Assembly: GCA_903891095.1 (NCBI GenBank)
Contig: CAITDI010000036.1
Span: 1-64,000 of the forward strand
Direction: 5' to 3'
Source: an uncultured bacterium
GTDB lineage: Bacteria > Planctomycetota > Phycisphaerae > Phycisphaerales > SM1A02
Length of the DNA stretch: 64,000 nt
Within the stretch, counting starts at the first letter, position 1, and each line of letters begins with the position of its first letter. The translations under genes and the position numbers were made by a program. This document shows, in pieces, positions 25,837 through 63,083 of the stretch. The notes below the pieces were generated by a model, which was given only the letters and a program-made list of their open reading frames with translations, searched no databases and was not told where the DNA came from.

Positions 25837-27312
25837 TCACCAGCGCGAGAGCAGGATCGCGAGGTCCACCGAGTCGACGAAGCCGTCGGCGTTGAGGTCG
25901 GCGCGCGTCCAGATCGGAGTCGGTCCCCAGTTGCCGAGGATGGACGCAAGATCCGAAGCTCCGACGACGCCGTCGCAGTCGATGTCGCACATCGGCGGGG
26001 CAACCGGGCTCAGCTTGACGACACCGCTCGCCGACACGCGCGCCTGGCCAAGCTGGCCTGCGAAGGTCGGGTTCTGGAAGTCGACGGATGCGCCACTGTC
26101 GGCGATCATCGCGAGGATGCGGCTGCGGATCTGCGTTGCCGGCACATTGGTGTTCGGCCACTGCGGATTCTGCGAGCGGACGAGCGCAACCGTTCCGCTC
26201 ACGAACGCGTTCGCGAACGAGGTGCCCTTCCACACGGCGAACTGGCCGCCGGGGATCGGTCCGATGATCGAGTGATCGAGACGCGGAACGCCGTTGAGGA
26301 TCTCCGTGTGTCCCGGAGCCGCGATATCCATACGGATATCCCAGTTCGAGAACGGAGCGCGGACATCGTTCCAGTCGAGCGCGGTGACGCCAAGCGCGGT
26401 CGCCTCGCACGCGGGGTACTGGCGCACGGAATTCGAGTTGCCGTTGCCCGCTGCACCGCAGATCACGATGCCCTTCGAGTCGGCCTCGTTGACCATGTTC
26501 ACGATCGACTGCGAGTGGTAGCTCTCGCCGAGGCTCATGTTGATGACATGCGCGCCGCGGTCGATCGACCAGGCGATCGCCTGCGCGATGCGGAAGTTGT
26601 TGCCGCGGCCTTCGCTGTCGAGCGCGCGCGCCGAGAGGATCATCGCGTCGGGAGCGACAAGGTGGATCAGTCCCGCGACGAACGTGCCGTGTCCGACCTG
26701 CTCGTCGATGAAACCGTCGCCATCGTTGTCGATGCCGTCGCCGACGTCGTTGAAGTTCGTCGAGCCAGGAACAAAGCTCGCGCCCTGCGTGCTGACGGCG
26801 CCCGAAAGCAGCGGATGTGCCGCATCGATGCCCGTGTCGATCACGGACACCACGACGCCTGCGCCACGCGAGCTCTTGTGCGCGACATCGACGCCCATCA
26901 GCGGGCTCGCGTACTGCGCGTTGAACTGCTCGGCGCTCAGACCGAGACCCGAGAGCCACAGGCTGTCGGTCTGGCCTTCGCCGGTCTGGCCGGTGTAGTT
27001 GAGTTCTTCCCAGCTCAGCGTGCCTTGCTGGGTCAGCGCCCTGAGCGCGTTCTCAAACTGGTCAACCGTCTGGTTGCCGTTGAGCTGGTACGAGATCAGG
27101 TAGATCGGGCGACCGTTGATGCGGTCGATGACTCCCACGCCGGCAAACTGCTGCGAAAGCGATGCGATCGCCTGCGCGAGTGCCTTTGGCGTCGCAGCGC
27201 GCACGACCGCCTCGCCCGGAACGGGCGGCGGGCCTTGCGGAAGACCGCGGGCGATGGCCGGCAGAGGCAACATCGCAGCGATGAATGCTGTGAGAGCAAT
27301 GATCTTTTTCAT
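25837..27312 (-). CDS. Secreted subtilisin-like serine protease (S8) with dockerin-like tail
   Basis: A 491-residue protein. A Sec signal peptide covers about residues 1-22. A propeptide-like domain (about 30-110) follows, then a subtilase catalytic domain with Asp159 (SVIDTG), His208 (GHGTFVAG), oxyanion Asn290 (AAGNGNS) and Ser365 (GTSFANA). The C-terminus (442-491) has two EF-hand-like loops, CDIDCDGVVGASDL and ADLNADGFVDSVDL, as in Phycisphaerae exported proteins. The ATG overlaps the stop of the TPR-CHAT gene (ATGA), so it is the last gene of that operon. The triad is complete, so it should be active once exported. Confidence 0.93.
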   Translation of the reverse strand: MKKIIALTAFIAAMLPLPAIARGLPQGPPPVPGEAVVRAATPKALAQAIASLSQQFAGVGVIDRINGRPIYLISYQLNGNQTVDQFENALRALTQQGTLSWEELNYTGQTGEGQTDSLWLSGLGLSAEQFNAQYASPLMGVDVAHKSSRGAGVVVSVIDTGIDAAHPLLSGAVSTQGASFVPGSTNFNDVGDGIDNDGDGFIDEQVGHGTFVAGLIHLVAPDAMILSARALDSEGRGNNFRIAQAIAWSIDRGAHVINMSLGESYHSQSIVNMVNEADSKGIVICGAAGNGNSNSVRQYPACEATALGVTALDWNDVRAPFSNWDIRMDIAAPGHTEILNGVPRLDHSIIGPIPGGQFAVWKGTSFANAFVSGTVALVRSQNPQWPNTNVPATQIRSRILAMIADSGASVDFQNPTFAGQLGQARVSASGVVKLSPVAPPMCDIDCDGVVGASDLASILGNWGPTPIWTRADLNADGFVDSVDLAILLSRW

Positions 27313-30131
27313 GACAGTGACCCAGTGACGACAAAGGGTGCCCACCACGAAGGATGGCCCCATTTCAGGATCGAGGCAAGTACCGCGGAGCGAAGAGCCG
27401 TAGATGGTCGCTTGCCTTTAGAGATTTCCTGATGGAACGAGGTCGATACCTCGAGCGCCGCCTGATCTCGGACGGACCAAAGTCCGGCCACCAGGCAACG
27501 CGCTCCAGCCGCGAGGAATGCGCGACTGATACCTGCGAGTTCGTCGCCGGCGTCCACGGCGTTACGACCCGTCTCACAACCTGCAAGAAACACGAAGTCC
27601 GCGTCGAGCTCGAGCGCGACGATGTCGCGCACCGGCATCCAGCCGTCGGCAAGCCGAAGGCCCGATGCAGTCGGAAGCGCACCGATAAACCGACCGTGAC
27701 ACGCAAAGTGCAGCGCGGAGCGTCCGCGCACGGCGTCGCGCACACGCGCGATCGTCGCTTGTGATCCCTCGAGCACATCGGCGCCGCGCGCGGCGGCGAT
27801 CGACTGGGCCTCGCGCTCGATGAGCGGGGCCTGTTCGTCCGCGACGGCGACCACCAGCGGGCGATCGTTGGTGGCGTTGCGCGACTCGCGCTCCGCACAC
27901 GCGATCGACGCGCTCGGCGCCGTCTGGATCTCGAATCGTTCGATGAGGTACTTGTCGCCGTCGGTGAGCGCGGCGAACGGCAGCGCATGCAGCGCGCCGA
28001 AGGGCACGATCACGAGGCGCTTGGCGTCGGCGACCGAGGCGCGCTCGGCCAGGATCGGAACGATCAGCAGGTCGTGCAGCGCGCGCGAAAGCGCCTTGAT
28101 CGCGCGGTTGCTGCGCGCATCGGCGCTGCGCACGCCGGCGCGGAGCTGGTAGAGGAACTTGTCGACAAGCGGCCCGAGCTCGGACGCCTGCGCAATGCAG
28201 CGCACCGAGGTGATCTCGCCGCGCTGCGCGACGAAGGCCATGAGCTCCTCGCCGGCGATGAAGTACGCGATCATCGCGTCGTCGTTGTCGAGGCGCGCAA
28301 GCACCTCGTCGGCGCCGAGCGGCTGCGCGAACAGCGACGCCACGCCGCGAGCGCTCTGCTCACGGGTGAGGAGGCGGTCCATCGCGCCTTCGGTCTCGCG
28401 GAGTTCATCGAGAAGCGCGGGCGAAACGCCACGACGCTGGCCGCTGTCGCCGGCATCGCGAGCGACGCTCGAGTGCAGCGCCGCGAGGCGTGCGCGGAGG
28501 CGCGCGATCTCGTCGCTGGACGTATCGCTGGACGTATCTCTGGACTTGGCAGGCGAAGCGCCCGTGCGGTCGATGTTGCGGAGCACGGCGTCGAGCAGCA
28601 CGCGGCTGCGCGCGCGCTCGACGGTCACGAACGCGTCGGCGAGCGACTTCGGATCGGCCTGCGCGAGCAGGTCGAGCGCGAGATCCTCGTACACGCGCAG
28701 GCGCGACGAAGCGAACGCCGAGCGCAGGCGATCGGCGGCGAGCGAACCGCGAAGGTCTTCGGCGATCTCCACCGCATGCGAAAGCGCGGCGATCGAGCGC
28801 GGGAGCGAGCCCTTCGCGCGTTCCGAGTCGGCCTCGATCAGCGCGGCGTCGATCTCGACCACGCGGACGCCGAGCGCCGCGGCGCCGGAGCGCGCGCTGC
28901 GCGCGGTCTCGAGCGCGCGGTCGGTGTTTCCAAGTGCGAGTTCAGCGCGGGCGGCGCGCACGAGCGCGCGGGCGCTGTCGAGCGGGCTCGCGTCGCGCAT
29001 GGCGATGGCGGCGAGATCCGCGGATTCCTGTGCGTTTCCTTCGCGCAGCGCGAGCTCGCTCGCGACCAGCGCCGACGCGCGCATGCCGCGCGCATCGCCG
29101 ATTTCATCGGAAAGCGCGAGCGCGCGCGCCGCAGCGGGCTTGGCTTCGGCAACGCGATCGGCGGCTGCGAGAGCGCGCGCACGGACCAGGAGTCCGCGCG
29201 CCATCTCGGCCTTGAGTCCCTTGTCGGATGCGGTTGCAAGCGCCGAGTCGACGGCGGCAAGCGCTTCGCCATTGGCGCCGAGCACCGCGAGTGCCTCGGC
29301 TTCCTCGAGCAGGAGTCGTGCGTGGTGACCGGGCGCGATCTTCGCGACCATCTGCGACGCGCGGTCGAACTCGCGCAGCGCGTCGCCAAAGCGGCCCTCG
29401 CGTGCGAGGAGGTCGGCGCGGTTGCCGACGACGATCGCGTGCGCGAACGGCAGCGTGGTGAGCAGCGCCTCCGCTCGGTCGAAGGCGGCGTGCGCCTCGG
29501 CCAGGCGGTCGAGCTGGAGCAGAGTTTCGCCGAGCGTGTTCTCTATGGTTCCGCGCGCGCCGGTCTCGGCGGCGGGGATCCCTGCAAGCGCGCGCTCGAG
29601 GCACGCAAGCGCTTCGCTCTGCTCACCGCGGATCTTGTGCACGTTCGCGAGGTTGAGCTCGGCGCGTGCGGCAAGGTCCCGTCGTCCTGCGGTGTTCAGA
29701 GCGTCACGCGATGCGCGACCTCGTTCGATGGCCTCGGCAGTGCGGCCGAGCTTGGCAAGCGCGTGCATCGAGGCGACGCCTGAGCGGGCCTTCTCGACGC
29801 TGTCGCCTGCGCCTTCTGCAACAGCCTGTGCCTCGGCGGCGCGCACCAGCGCTTCGTCGAGGCGACCCATGTAGGCAAGCGCGGGAATCGTCGCACGCAG
29901 CGCGCGAGCGCTGGCGCTTCCCGAACCAACCGCGACGGCCACCGCAGCAAGCGACTCGCCCGCGCTCAAAGCACGCTCGGGCGAACCAGCTGCGATCCGT
30001 TCACACTCATCCGCGAGCGCCACGATCGCCGCGGCAGCGCCACGGGAATCACGCGCGACCGCGTCCGCTCGAGCGCTCTCTGCGAGCGCCTCGAAAGCAG
30101 CGAGGTCCAGCTGGCTGGGGGAGCCGTTCAT
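27309..30131 (-). CDS. TPR-CHAT protein (caspase-like peptidase)
   Basis: A 940-residue protein without a signal peptide, so cytoplasmic. Residues about 20-480 are Ala-rich helical repeats of TPR type. A linker at about 500-560 contains a duplicated DTSS segment. The C-terminal CHAT domain (about 620-940) has the catalytic pair His812 in HFACHG and Cys852 in LAGCETG. CHAT domains are caspase-family peptidases often driven by TPR or other sensors. The stop overlaps the subtilase start, and the start overlaps the stop of the upstream beta-sandwich gene, each by 4 nt, indicating translational coupling. Confidence 0.92.
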   Translation of the reverse strand: MNGSPSQLDLAAFEALAESARADAVARDSRGAAAAIVALADECERIAAGSPERALSAGESLAAVAVAVGSGSASARALRATIPALAYMGRLDEALVRAAEAQAVAEGAGDSVEKARSGVASMHALAKLGRTAEAIERGRASRDALNTAGRRDLAARAELNLANVHKIRGEQSEALACLERALAGIPAAETGARGTIENTLGETLLQLDRLAEAHAAFDRAEALLTTLPFAHAIVVGNRADLLAREGRFGDALREFDRASQMVAKIAPGHHARLLLEEAEALAVLGANGEALAAVDSALATASDKGLKAEMARGLLVRARALAAADRVAEAKPAAARALALSDEIGDARGMRASALVASELALREGNAQESADLAAIAMRDASPLDSARALVRAARAELALGNTDRALETARSARSGAAALGVRVVEIDAALIEADSERAKGSLPRSIAALSHAVEIAEDLRGSLAADRLRSAFASSRLRVYEDLALDLLAQADPKSLADAFVTVERARSRVLLDAVLRNIDRTGASPAKSRDTSSDTSSDEIARLRARLAALHSSVARDAGDSGQRRGVSPALLDELRETEGAMDRLLTREQSARGVASLFAQPLGADEVLARLDNDDAMIAYFIAGEELMAFVAQRGEITSVRCIAQASELGPLVDKFLYQLRAGVRSADARSNRAIKALSRALHDLLIVPILAERASVADAKRLVIVPFGALHALPFAALTDGDKYLIERFEIQTAPSASIACAERESRNATNDRPLVVAVADEQAPLIEREAQSIAAARGADVLEGSQATIARVRDAVRGRSALHFACHGRFIGALPTASGLRLADGWMPVRDIVALELDADFVFLAGCETGRNAVDAGDELAGISRAFLAAGARCLVAGLWSVRDQAALEVSTSFHQEISKGKRPSTALRSAVLASILKWGHPSWWAPFVVTGSLS
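28513..28536. repeat. 12-bp tandem duplication inside the TPR-CHAT gene
   Basis: GCTGGACGTATC occurs twice in succession, followed by a third diverged unit (TCTGGACTTGGC). It encodes the repeated Asp-Thr-Ser-Ser segment between the TPR and CHAT parts and keeps the frame. Confidence 0.85.
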
Positions 30132-30959: not shown

Positions 30960-31583
30960 TCACTTGCCCGCCTCAAGATCAGGAGATTCGGACCCTACCT
31001 CGTCGGCATCTCCGAAGCCAAGCCGTCCGAGAATCTTGGAAAGCTTCTCAAGGCAGCGGGCGCGCGTCGGTCCGATCGAACCCACGCGGATGTCGAGCTT
31101 CTCCGCGATCAGGTTGTAGTTGGGCTCGGCGCCGGCGCCGAAGAGCGCCTCAAGCAGATCCTTGCACTTGCCGCCGAGCTGCTCGAGGCCGATGCGGACG
31201 AGTTGCTTCTCGCCGAGCGCCCGGCTGTCGGCGGCATCTTCGCGCTCGTCGACGGGGTCCATCGTCTTCTCGGGATCGGAGTCGAGCGACCGCGCGCGTT
31301 CGCCGTCCTTGCGACGTTGCGCACCAACGCGCCAGCAGCGGCGCTTGGTCGTGGTGACCAGCCAGCTCGCGAGCCCCGCGTCATCGGTGATCGAGTCGAT
31401 GTGCTGCACGAGCGTGGCGAACACGTGTTGAAACACGTCTTCCGCCTCTTCCTGCCGCATGCGATGCTTGAGGATCACCGACCACACGAGCCGTCGGTAG
31501 CGCTCGACGAGCAACGACCACGCCGCGGAATCACCACGGCGACAGCGCTCAAGCAGCGTTGGATCGGAGTCGAAGCCGGACAC
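30960..31583 (-). CDS. ECF-type RNA polymerase sigma factor
   Basis: A 207-residue sigma factor. Region 2 is clear (LVERYRRLVWSVILKHRM, EEAEDVFQHVFATLV, LASWLVTTTKRRCW). Region 4 is recognisable as a helix-turn-helix (YNLIAEKLDIRVGSIGPTRARCLEKL). A charged linker joins them. The start is GTG 31583 with TACACT ending 10 nt upstream. The next gene, 121 bp downstream, begins the beta-sandwich/CHAT/subtilase set, so this sigma factor is the likely regulator, possibly of its own operon. Confidence 0.88.
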   Translation of the reverse strand: MSGFDSDPTLLERCRRGDSAAWSLLVERYRRLVWSVILKHRMRQEEAEDVFQHVFATLVQHIDSITDDAGLASWLVTTTKRRCWRVGAQRRKDGERARSLDSDPEKTMDPVDEREDAADSRALGEKQLVRIGLEQLGGKCKDLLEALFGAGAEPNYNLIAEKLDIRVGSIGPTRARCLEKLSKILGRLGFGDADEVGSESPDLEAGK

Positions 31584-31679: not shown

Positions 31680-32138
31680 TCAGCCGCAAGCTCCCGATGC
31701 CCCGAGCACGGCCCCGAGCACGGCCCCGAGCACGGCCCCGAGCACGGCCCCGAGCACGGCCCCGAGCACGGCCGCGAGGTCGGAGCCGTTGACGATGCCG
31801 TCGCCGCCGACCCCCGCATCGCCCCGAGCGCGTCGCCGCGACTCCGCGATCGACCGGTTGCGCACATGAAAGAGGAGTCCGTTCAGCAGCCACCGCCGCA
31901 GCGGGAGCCCGCTGTCGAGCCAGCGCTCGAGATAGGTCGGGTCGCCGAGCCGCGCCGCGAAGAAGTCGTTGACCAGCTCGGCCGAGTCGCCGAAGTTCCG
32001 CAGGCTCGACCCCTTCACATACGCCCGCAGCGGCTCGAAGTACCGCGCCATGATGTGCTGCGCGACCTCGTCGTTGGCGACGCCGACGCGCTCGGACAGC
32101 CAGGTCTGATGGGTGGTCGGGAAGTGATCGCGGGTCAT
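31680..32138 (-). CDS. Truncated ECF sigma fragment fused to a dockerin-like, repeat-expanded tail
   Basis: A 152-residue ORF. Residues 1-106 resemble sigma region 2 (AQHIMARYFEPLRAYV, DSAELVNDFFAARL, LPLRRWLLNGLLFHVRNRSI). Region 4 is missing. The sequence instead passes into GGDGIVNGSDLAAVLG, the EF-hand motif of the dockerin-like module usually found at the end of exported proteins, then into AVLG repeated by a 12-bp microsatellite. A cytoplasmic sigma fragment with an exported-protein tail is not a known architecture. It may be a pseudogene formed by deletion between two genes, or a real short protein. Confidence 0.55.
   Translation of the reverse strand: MTRDHFPTTHQTWLSERVGVANDEVAQHIMARYFEPLRAYVKGSSLRNFGDSAELVNDFFAARLGDPTYLERWLDSGLPLRRWLLNGLLFHVRNRSIAESRRRARGDAGVGGDGIVNGSDLAAVLGAVLGAVLGAVLGAVLGAVLGASGACG
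31701..31772. repeat. Six perfect 12-bp tandem repeats
   Basis: CCCGAGCACGGC is repeated six times without mismatch. On the minus strand it encodes Ala-Val-Leu-Gly units at the C-terminus of the sigma-fragment ORF. The perfection suggests recent expansion by slippage, so the copy number may vary between strains. Confidence 0.97.
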
Positions 32139-32341: not shown

Positions 32342-32992
32342 ATGGATCCCATTCGCGGGCCCGTGAACGATGACTGCTCCGACCTCGCGGCGTTCGACGC
32401 CGGCGACCGGGAAGCGGGCAGACGGCTCTACGACCGACACGCACCACTGATCTTCGCGCTGTGCCGCGAGGAGACAGGAGTGCGCTCGGCACGAGACGCA
32501 GAGGACGCCGTGCAGGAGACCTTCCTGCGCGCCTTCCGCATGCGCGACCGTCTGACCGACTGCACCGGTTTCCGTCCGTGGCTCTACGCGATCGCGCGGC
32601 TCGTTTGCAAGGAACGCCGGAACACGCGCGCCAAGGAACGGCGCGACCTCGGCTACGGACTCGACGCCTCGCGCGATGCATCGCGCCAGGCGGCCAACGA
32701 AGGAACCAAGCGAATGCCGAACCACACCATGCAGGGCCTGCTCGAGAAGGCGGGAGGCGCGAGCGCCTCGTCGTCGCTCGAGCAACGCGAGCTCATGGCG
32801 CAGCTCGGGAGCGCGATCGACGCGCTCCCCGAGGACCTGCGCCTGGCGCTCCACCTCTTCTACATCGAACCAGACCCTGTCGACGCCGCGAAGCGCGCGC
32901 TCGGGATTTCCCGCGCGCAGTTCTACCGGCTCGTCACGCAGGCACGCGAACTCATTGCCGCGCAGCTCACGCGCGAGGACCACACGTCATGA
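32342..32992 (+). CDS. ECF-type RNA polymerase sigma factor
   Basis: A 216-residue sigma factor. Region 2 reads LYDRHAPLIFALC, DAEDAVQETFLRAFRM and FRPWLYAIARLVCKERR. A variable Ser/Gly-containing linker follows, and region 4 includes LPEDLRLALHLFYIE and AKRALGISRAQFYRLVTQAREL. Its stop overlaps the start of the giant VIT/vWA membrane protein (ATGA), an arrangement usual for sigma/anti-sigma pairs. No SD or close -10 box is clear upstream. Confidence 0.9.
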   Translation: MDPIRGPVNDDCSDLAAFDAGDREAGRRLYDRHAPLIFALCREETGVRSARDAEDAVQETFLRAFRMRDRLTDCTGFRPWLYAIARLVCKERRNTRAKERRDLGYGLDASRDASRQAANEGTKRMPNHTMQGLLEKAGGASASSSLEQRELMAQLGSAIDALPEDLRLALHLFYIEPDPVDAAKRALGISRAQFYRLVTQARELIAAQLTREDHTS

Positions 32993-62910: not shown

Positions 62911-63083
62911 GAATGCCCGTAGATGAAGGCGAAGCCGAAATCTGCGGAACGGGTTGCGCGCGAAGTCGATGGAATCCCAAGGTCGATGGAATCCCAAGGT
63001 CGATGGAATCCCAAGGTCGATGGACTCTCAAGGTCGATGGACTCCCACGTCCTGTGTTCCGCAGACTTCGTCTGCGGGCATTC
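62911..63083. mobile_element. 173-bp repeat element: 17-bp tandem array inside imperfect inverted repeats (MITE-like)
   Basis: The right end GTTCCGCAGA plus CTTCGTCTGCGGGCATTC (63056-63083) is mirrored at the left end by GAATGCCCGTAGATGAAG (62911-62928, two mismatches) and TCTGCGGAAC (62941-62950), separated by a 12-nt insert. Between them sit five 17-bp units. The right arm itself contains a perfect CCGCAGAC/GTCTGCGG hairpin. No coding sequence. It could be a small non-autonomous element or a REP-type composite. Confidence 0.55.
62965..63049. repeat. Five 17-bp tandem repeats
   Basis: GTCGATGGAATCCCAAG is repeated three times exactly (62965-63015), followed by two variants with GGACTC in place of GGAATC (63016-63049). 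The array lies between the transpeptidase and fucosidase genes. Confidence 0.95.

Follow-up and report, generated by a model that had tools for sequence, protein, structure and literature searches.

A sigma factor region 2 joined to a dockerin remnant in a planctomycete genome, and the two-gene module from which it probably derives

The open reading frame of 152 amino acids at positions 31680–32138 (minus strand) of the window, as the whole 64,000-nucleotide stretch of planctomycete DNA analysed here is called, is very probably the remnant of an in-place deletion that fused a sigma factor gene to the neighbouring gene for an exported dockerin protein. Relatives carry the two genes intact and in shared synteny, the window's frame contains sigma region 2 only, and the calcium loop of its dockerin part is broken. 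The fused frame is most likely a decaying remnant, whose product probably does nothing. Taken alone, the fusion is a minor accident of evolution; it brings to light a two-gene module that recurs in planctomycetes, and the sigma/dockerin pairs of the relatives look like an undescribed way of sensing the surroundings.

The fused reading frame and its sigma half

The first 112 residues of the frame (31803–32138, minus strand) constitute the sigma region-2 half, which aligns with 91% identity to its closest relative, locus L056 on a contig of a lake planctomycete MAG (Erken-D4_bin-1070), and which corresponds to a region-2 fold in the AlphaFold2 model of an intact ortholog. Residues 113–152 (31683–31802, minus strand) are, by comparison with the intact tails of relatives, what is left of the last GC-type dockerin repeat, with an expanded AVLG stretch and an ASGACG end. 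The tail stretch singled out in the earlier note, GGDGIVNGSDLAAVLG, is present in this frame. The same note had described six perfect 12-bp repeats; the array and its 12-bp unit hold, and the measured values are 6.7 copies with 98% matches at 31699–31778 (no strand assigned in the tandem-repeat listing). With a score of 153, this array tops the 41 tandem-repeat rows of the window, the second strongest being a 17-bp repeat at 62965–63047 (4.9 copies, score 145).

The window's protein has no sigma profile match in Pfam or NCBIfam up to E=1 and no dockerin profile match in the scans of the same two collections, so the labels given in the earlier note needed other evidence. For the ECF sigma region 2 at the front, which turned out to be right, this came from the AlphaFold model of the intact ortholog (mean pLDDT 90.4, from an alignment of 50 sequences). 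Residues 3–104 of this model superpose on region 2 of E. coli sigmaE (2map; Z 8.6, 2.5 Å) and residues 139–211 on region 4 (Z 8.8), values of Z near 8 being middling for helical domains by the structure-comparison tool's own guidance. The structure-match list was filled mostly by sigma chains, Foldseek with the ortholog model gave no match at E ≤ 0.001, and a PDB sequence search with the family profile returned no sigma match. Profile matches to Sigma70_r4_2 (best 6e-6) and to TIGR02937 were each obtained in 14 of 50 family members. The two distinct sigma domains modelled in their proper order, the mostly-sigma match list and these profile matches together identify the family as ECF-like sigma factors. 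Like ECF sigma factors of the sigmaE type, the intact orthologs are modelled with both region 2 and region 4; unlike them, the family is very divergent and has an N-terminal FPTT motif, and the window copy has region 2 only. In the model of the window's own protein, residues 11–100 reach a block pLDDT of at least 90.

The sigma family is present in all 16 genus genomes searched. Long orthologs occur in seven of these, with 76–88% identity over the sigma part; an eighth, in G010, is truncated by a contig end and is not counted among the intact copies. Together with L056, the seven make up eight long copies, all of them intact proteins of 228–239 amino acids with 76–91% identity over the sigma part. 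They keep region 4, which is absent from the window's frame, as the earlier note had maintained. A contig scan found seven loci, only one of which is a true relative, the other six matching the tail only.

Window-only changes in the sigma part amount to 5 nonsynonymous and 8 synonymous ones, compared with 6 and 10 specific to L056, and dN/dS between the two is 0.08, with no relaxation relative to L056. As there is no excess of amino-acid change, either the fusion is of recent date or the time elapsed is too short for a verdict, and the unrelaxed sigma part mostly reflects the time before the fusion. This fits a very recent event; it would also fit a product that is still in use.

Intact gene pairs in relatives and the junction

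The earlier note had advised looking for intact relatives of each half. Eight relatives have sequence that continues past the sigma gene, and in each of them an intact sigma gene is accompanied by a separate exported-protein gene, whose reading frame begins at the sigma stop. The end of the exported gene is complete in five of the eight loci and is always a dockerin, terminating in GWGACP, GWGACQ or SWGACN; in the other three the contig ends first. Sigma and dockerin genes are in fact neighbours across the family, often with an overlapped stop codon, and the join is not the unexpected meeting of unrelated genes for which it had been taken.

Synteny places the window's locus in the same setting. 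The divergent sigma factor gene that anchors it on the left (32342–32992, plus strand; Sigma70_r2 8.8e-13) is present in eight of nine loci. On the other side, four loci reach past the exported gene; in three of them (G007, G009 and G011) it is followed by the ECF sigma, hypothetical and CHAT genes of the window, which do not follow it in G006. In the window, 96 bp separate the end of the fused frame from the same ECF sigma gene (30960–31583, minus strand; Sigma70_r2 2.2e-11), and the CHAT gene that had been reported downstream is indeed there, as a CHAT-TPR protein with a profile match of 7e-54 (27309–30131, minus strand). Beyond it, at 25837–25986 (minus strand), a further dockerin-like match with one TGA inside was noticed.

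Compared by coordinates, the window lacks about 1.34 kb relative to G009, 1.42 kb relative to G011 and 1.52 kb relative to G007. At the join, sigma homology extends to GVGG and the dockerin starts at DG. The hexamer at this point, GACGGC (31797–31802, minus strand), is found in DNA alignments in both parental sequences of G007, namely in the sigma linker (GGTGACGGC) and in the dockerin calcium loop (AGCGACGGC), with 7 of 9 bases alike around it. This junction repeat suggests a deletion between short repeats. The linker of the closest relative, L056, does not contain GACGGC, so the 6-bp repeat of the true parent is an assumption.

The relatives' tail reads ADTNGDGDVNGADL and that of the window AGVGGDGIVNGSDL, from which it follows that ligands 1 and 3 of the relatives' D-x-N-x-D loop have been replaced by glycines from the sigma linker. 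The conserved Trp of the AWG/GWG motif is Ser in the window, and the other dockerin repeat is missing, leaving one partial calcium loop instead of two with D-x-N-x-D ligands. The tail of the lost gene resembles GC-type dockerin domain-anchored proteins (NCBIfam NF041540), to which the relatives give sub-threshold matches; the window differs in retaining less than half of the domain, with the ligands gone. In the window's own genome, 94 dockerin_GC matches were obtained (up to E=1), some above the cut-off. The lost exported body was not found elsewhere in this genome, where the matches covered the dockerin tail and a short segment preceding it, apart from weak partial ones, and a search of the plasmid collection gave no match. 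With a Kyte-Doolittle value of 2.37 over 19 residues, the AVLG tail is so strongly hydrophobic that it could form a membrane helix.

Origin of the fusion and competing explanations

The ancestral locus would have held an ECF-like sigma gene directly followed by an exported-protein gene with a GC-type dockerin end. A deletion of approximately 1.3–1.5 kb would have taken out region 4 together with the end of the sigma linker and, from the exported gene, the transmembrane leader, the body and the greater part of the dockerin. Its end points were probably short direct repeats resembling GACGGC (an exact 6-bp match in G007), and it left sigma region 2 fused in frame to half of the last calcium loop. 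The tail would then have degenerated, the Trp of its AWG motif changing to Ser, and one block of AVLG codons would have grown by slippage. A copy of the dockerin tail brought in from elsewhere was considered and rejected, since the expected downstream genes adjoin and the parent gene occupies the same place in relatives.

Members of the sigma family occur in 98 of the 121 genomes searched in the same taxonomic family (E ≤ 1e-8) and in 60 of 201 order genomes (E ≤ 1e-20). The earlier note's deletion fusion is strongly supported by the intact gene pair in all eight relatives and by the searches for a conserved fused form: among the matches listed from the 16 genus, 121 family and 201 order genomes (overlapping sets), no other dockerin fusion was found. 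A total of 89 members, from nine high-quality genomes and four further orthologous loci, were examined for region 4. It is missing in three of them for reasons other than a contig end, an observation made post hoc: the window copy, L080 (G000:C21:1881-2219, strand not given) and L085 (G000:C36:79672-79995, strand not given), which all belong to the ten family copies of the window's own genome. One of L080 and L085 lost region 4 by an in-frame internal deletion. Two loci of other genera, L157 and L158, are also open frames that lack region 4, and neither is joined to a dockerin. Region-4 loss therefore recurs in the family, and the dockerin fusion is seen once. No paper on sigma factors without region 4 was found in the open-access literature searched.

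Sigma region 2 alone might still contact core polymerase, and the earlier note had suggested a decoy role for the fused product; nothing in the analysis argues for use, and the tail looks degenerate. It is unlikely that the protein works by binding core RNA polymerase through region 2 and, being devoid of region 4 and perhaps held at the membrane by its AVLG tail, acts as a decoy or local inhibitor. Such a role would suit an intact region 2 modelled with high confidence, the low dN/dS of the sigma part, the hydrophobic tail and the open frames of L080 and L085, but the family has no conserved region-2-only form, and the tail has lost its conserved residues and is modelled at a pLDDT of 38–51. 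That an older, selected gene fusion yielded a new regulator is scarcely credible: the frame is open and the 12-bp repeat unit preserves it, yet the fusion occurs in one genome only among the matches listed, and near-perfect repeats together with a degenerate tail suggest recency and no constraint.

The genome is a draft of 131 contigs, and its sequence could contain a chimeric join or an incorrect number of repeats. With about 94 copies of dockerin-coding DNA in the genome, an assembler might have joined two separate places. This is very unlikely: the contig is 138 kb long and has the join 32 kb in, the genes expected from synteny are in place downstream, and the common stretch is only 6–9 bp, below the k-mers commonly used in assembly. 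The in-place deletion remains the preferred reading.

The parental sigma/dockerin operon

Among the 89 members, a dockerin gene lies directly downstream of the sigma gene in 29 and directly upstream in 25, some having both; 39 have no downstream dockerin despite at least 1.6 kb of available sequence, and 21 without one are limited by a contig end. The gene order is thus not fixed. Given the 94 dockerin_GC matches in the window's own genome, chance adjacency is estimated at a few percent per side.

A separate count, including some other genera, comprised 28 sigma genes with a downstream dockerin ORF, which starts between -12 and +60 of the sigma stop and overlaps it in 15 cases, in the ATGA or GTGA manner. 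By hydropathy only, the first hydrophobic stretch of these ORFs starts at residue 21–89 in all 28, and 20 have two such stretches, compared with 3 of 20 control dockerin ORFs of the window's own genome located away from sigma genes (two of the controls, L181 and L190, are not clearly in a dockerin frame). By a loose criterion, a ribosome-binding-like sequence and a second Met with a signal peptide follow the first helix in 24 of the 28. The leader evolves as coding sequence in the dockerin-ORF frame, with a third-position excess and a dN/dS of about 0.3–0.6. At its end, just before the second start codon, a 29-bp stretch of DNA is identical in 6 of the 16 genus genomes (e.g. G007:C260:3957-3985) and absent from the window's genome. 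A role as family-wide sigma promoter was weakened for this stretch: occurring once per genome and at this locus only, it cannot be one.

The extracellular parts vary, with RCC1, LamG-like, C-type lectin, DUF642 and beta-helix domains among ten partner proteins scanned with Pfam. At L065 and L066, the loci of G009 and G011 that are orthologous to that of the window, the sigma factors are 93%, the leaders 71% and the dockerins 82% identical and the exported bodies unrelated (E 1.1), a pattern that suggests cassette exchange at one locus.

In cellulosome clostridia, SigI-RsgI systems are described as a sigma factor paired with a membrane protein, whose short N-terminus is cytosolic and whose single transmembrane helix leads to variable binding domains outside the cell; a genome of these dockerin users carries several paralogous pairs (PMC12203970). 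The parental operon is similar in that its sigma gene is directly followed by a predicted cytosolic N-terminus, a transmembrane helix and an extracellular domain, and in that it, too, comes in several paralogous copies per genome of an organism with dockerins; it differs in the ECF-like sigma and in a partner that itself carries the dockerin and an internal signal-peptide start. No Pfam match to the RsgI anti-sigma N-terminal domain was found in the ten partner proteins (E up to 0.01). A 13-residue motif common to the leaders scores 333, against 284–311 in shuffles, in a weak search driven by orthologs. The operon thus resembles SigI-RsgI in outline, not in membership, with sigma binding as a candidate function of the leader. 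In freshwater Phycisphaerae, dockerin and cohesin modules (the "planctosome") and many sigma factors have been described (PMC6461901, in the portion available). The window's genome likewise carries dockerins, with two cohesin matches above the cut-off; in that portion of the planctosome paper, sigma genes are not linked to dockerin genes. The Phycisphaerae label given in the earlier note agrees with this description and with the lake planctomycete origin of L056. No description of the sigma/dockerin pairing was found in the open-access literature searched, including the accessible parts of PMC6461901, PMC8103513 and PMC11557425, and no paper on the "GC-type dockerin" in the same literature.

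A tentative joint reading, somewhat less probable than its negation, is that, in planctomycetes of the Phycisphaerae type, the parental operons make up a new class of paired sigma factor and membrane sensor. One frame would yield two products: a membrane-anchored regulator, initiated at a start that overlaps the sigma stop, and a secreted dockerin protein, initiated internally behind a ribosome-binding site of its own and provided with a signal peptide. The extracellular domain would be swapped as a cassette, with leader and dockerin staying constant on either side. The window would then contain a failed locus of this kind, with dockerin-loop DNA as the recombination point. The architecture of the module suggests how these bacteria might couple transcription to the dockerin-bearing proteins outside the cell (lectin, LamG, RCC1 and beta-helix). 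Should the leader bind the sigma factor, dockerin biology in planctomycetes would have a counterpart to the sensing system of cellulosome clostridia, and a regulon could be assigned to each extracellular domain.

Other downstream partners exist, so the sigma/dockerin pairing is one of several contexts; those seen by eye are kinase-like, nucleotidyltransferase-like and zinc-ribbon proteins. At L086 and L117, also by eye, the sigma gene is followed by a serine/threonine kinase-like gene with overlapping stop and start. Additionally, many family loci (L090, L091, L125, L132, L133, L134, L135, L140 and others) lie within a few hundred bases of draft contig ends, as if the neighbouring gene varied between strains.
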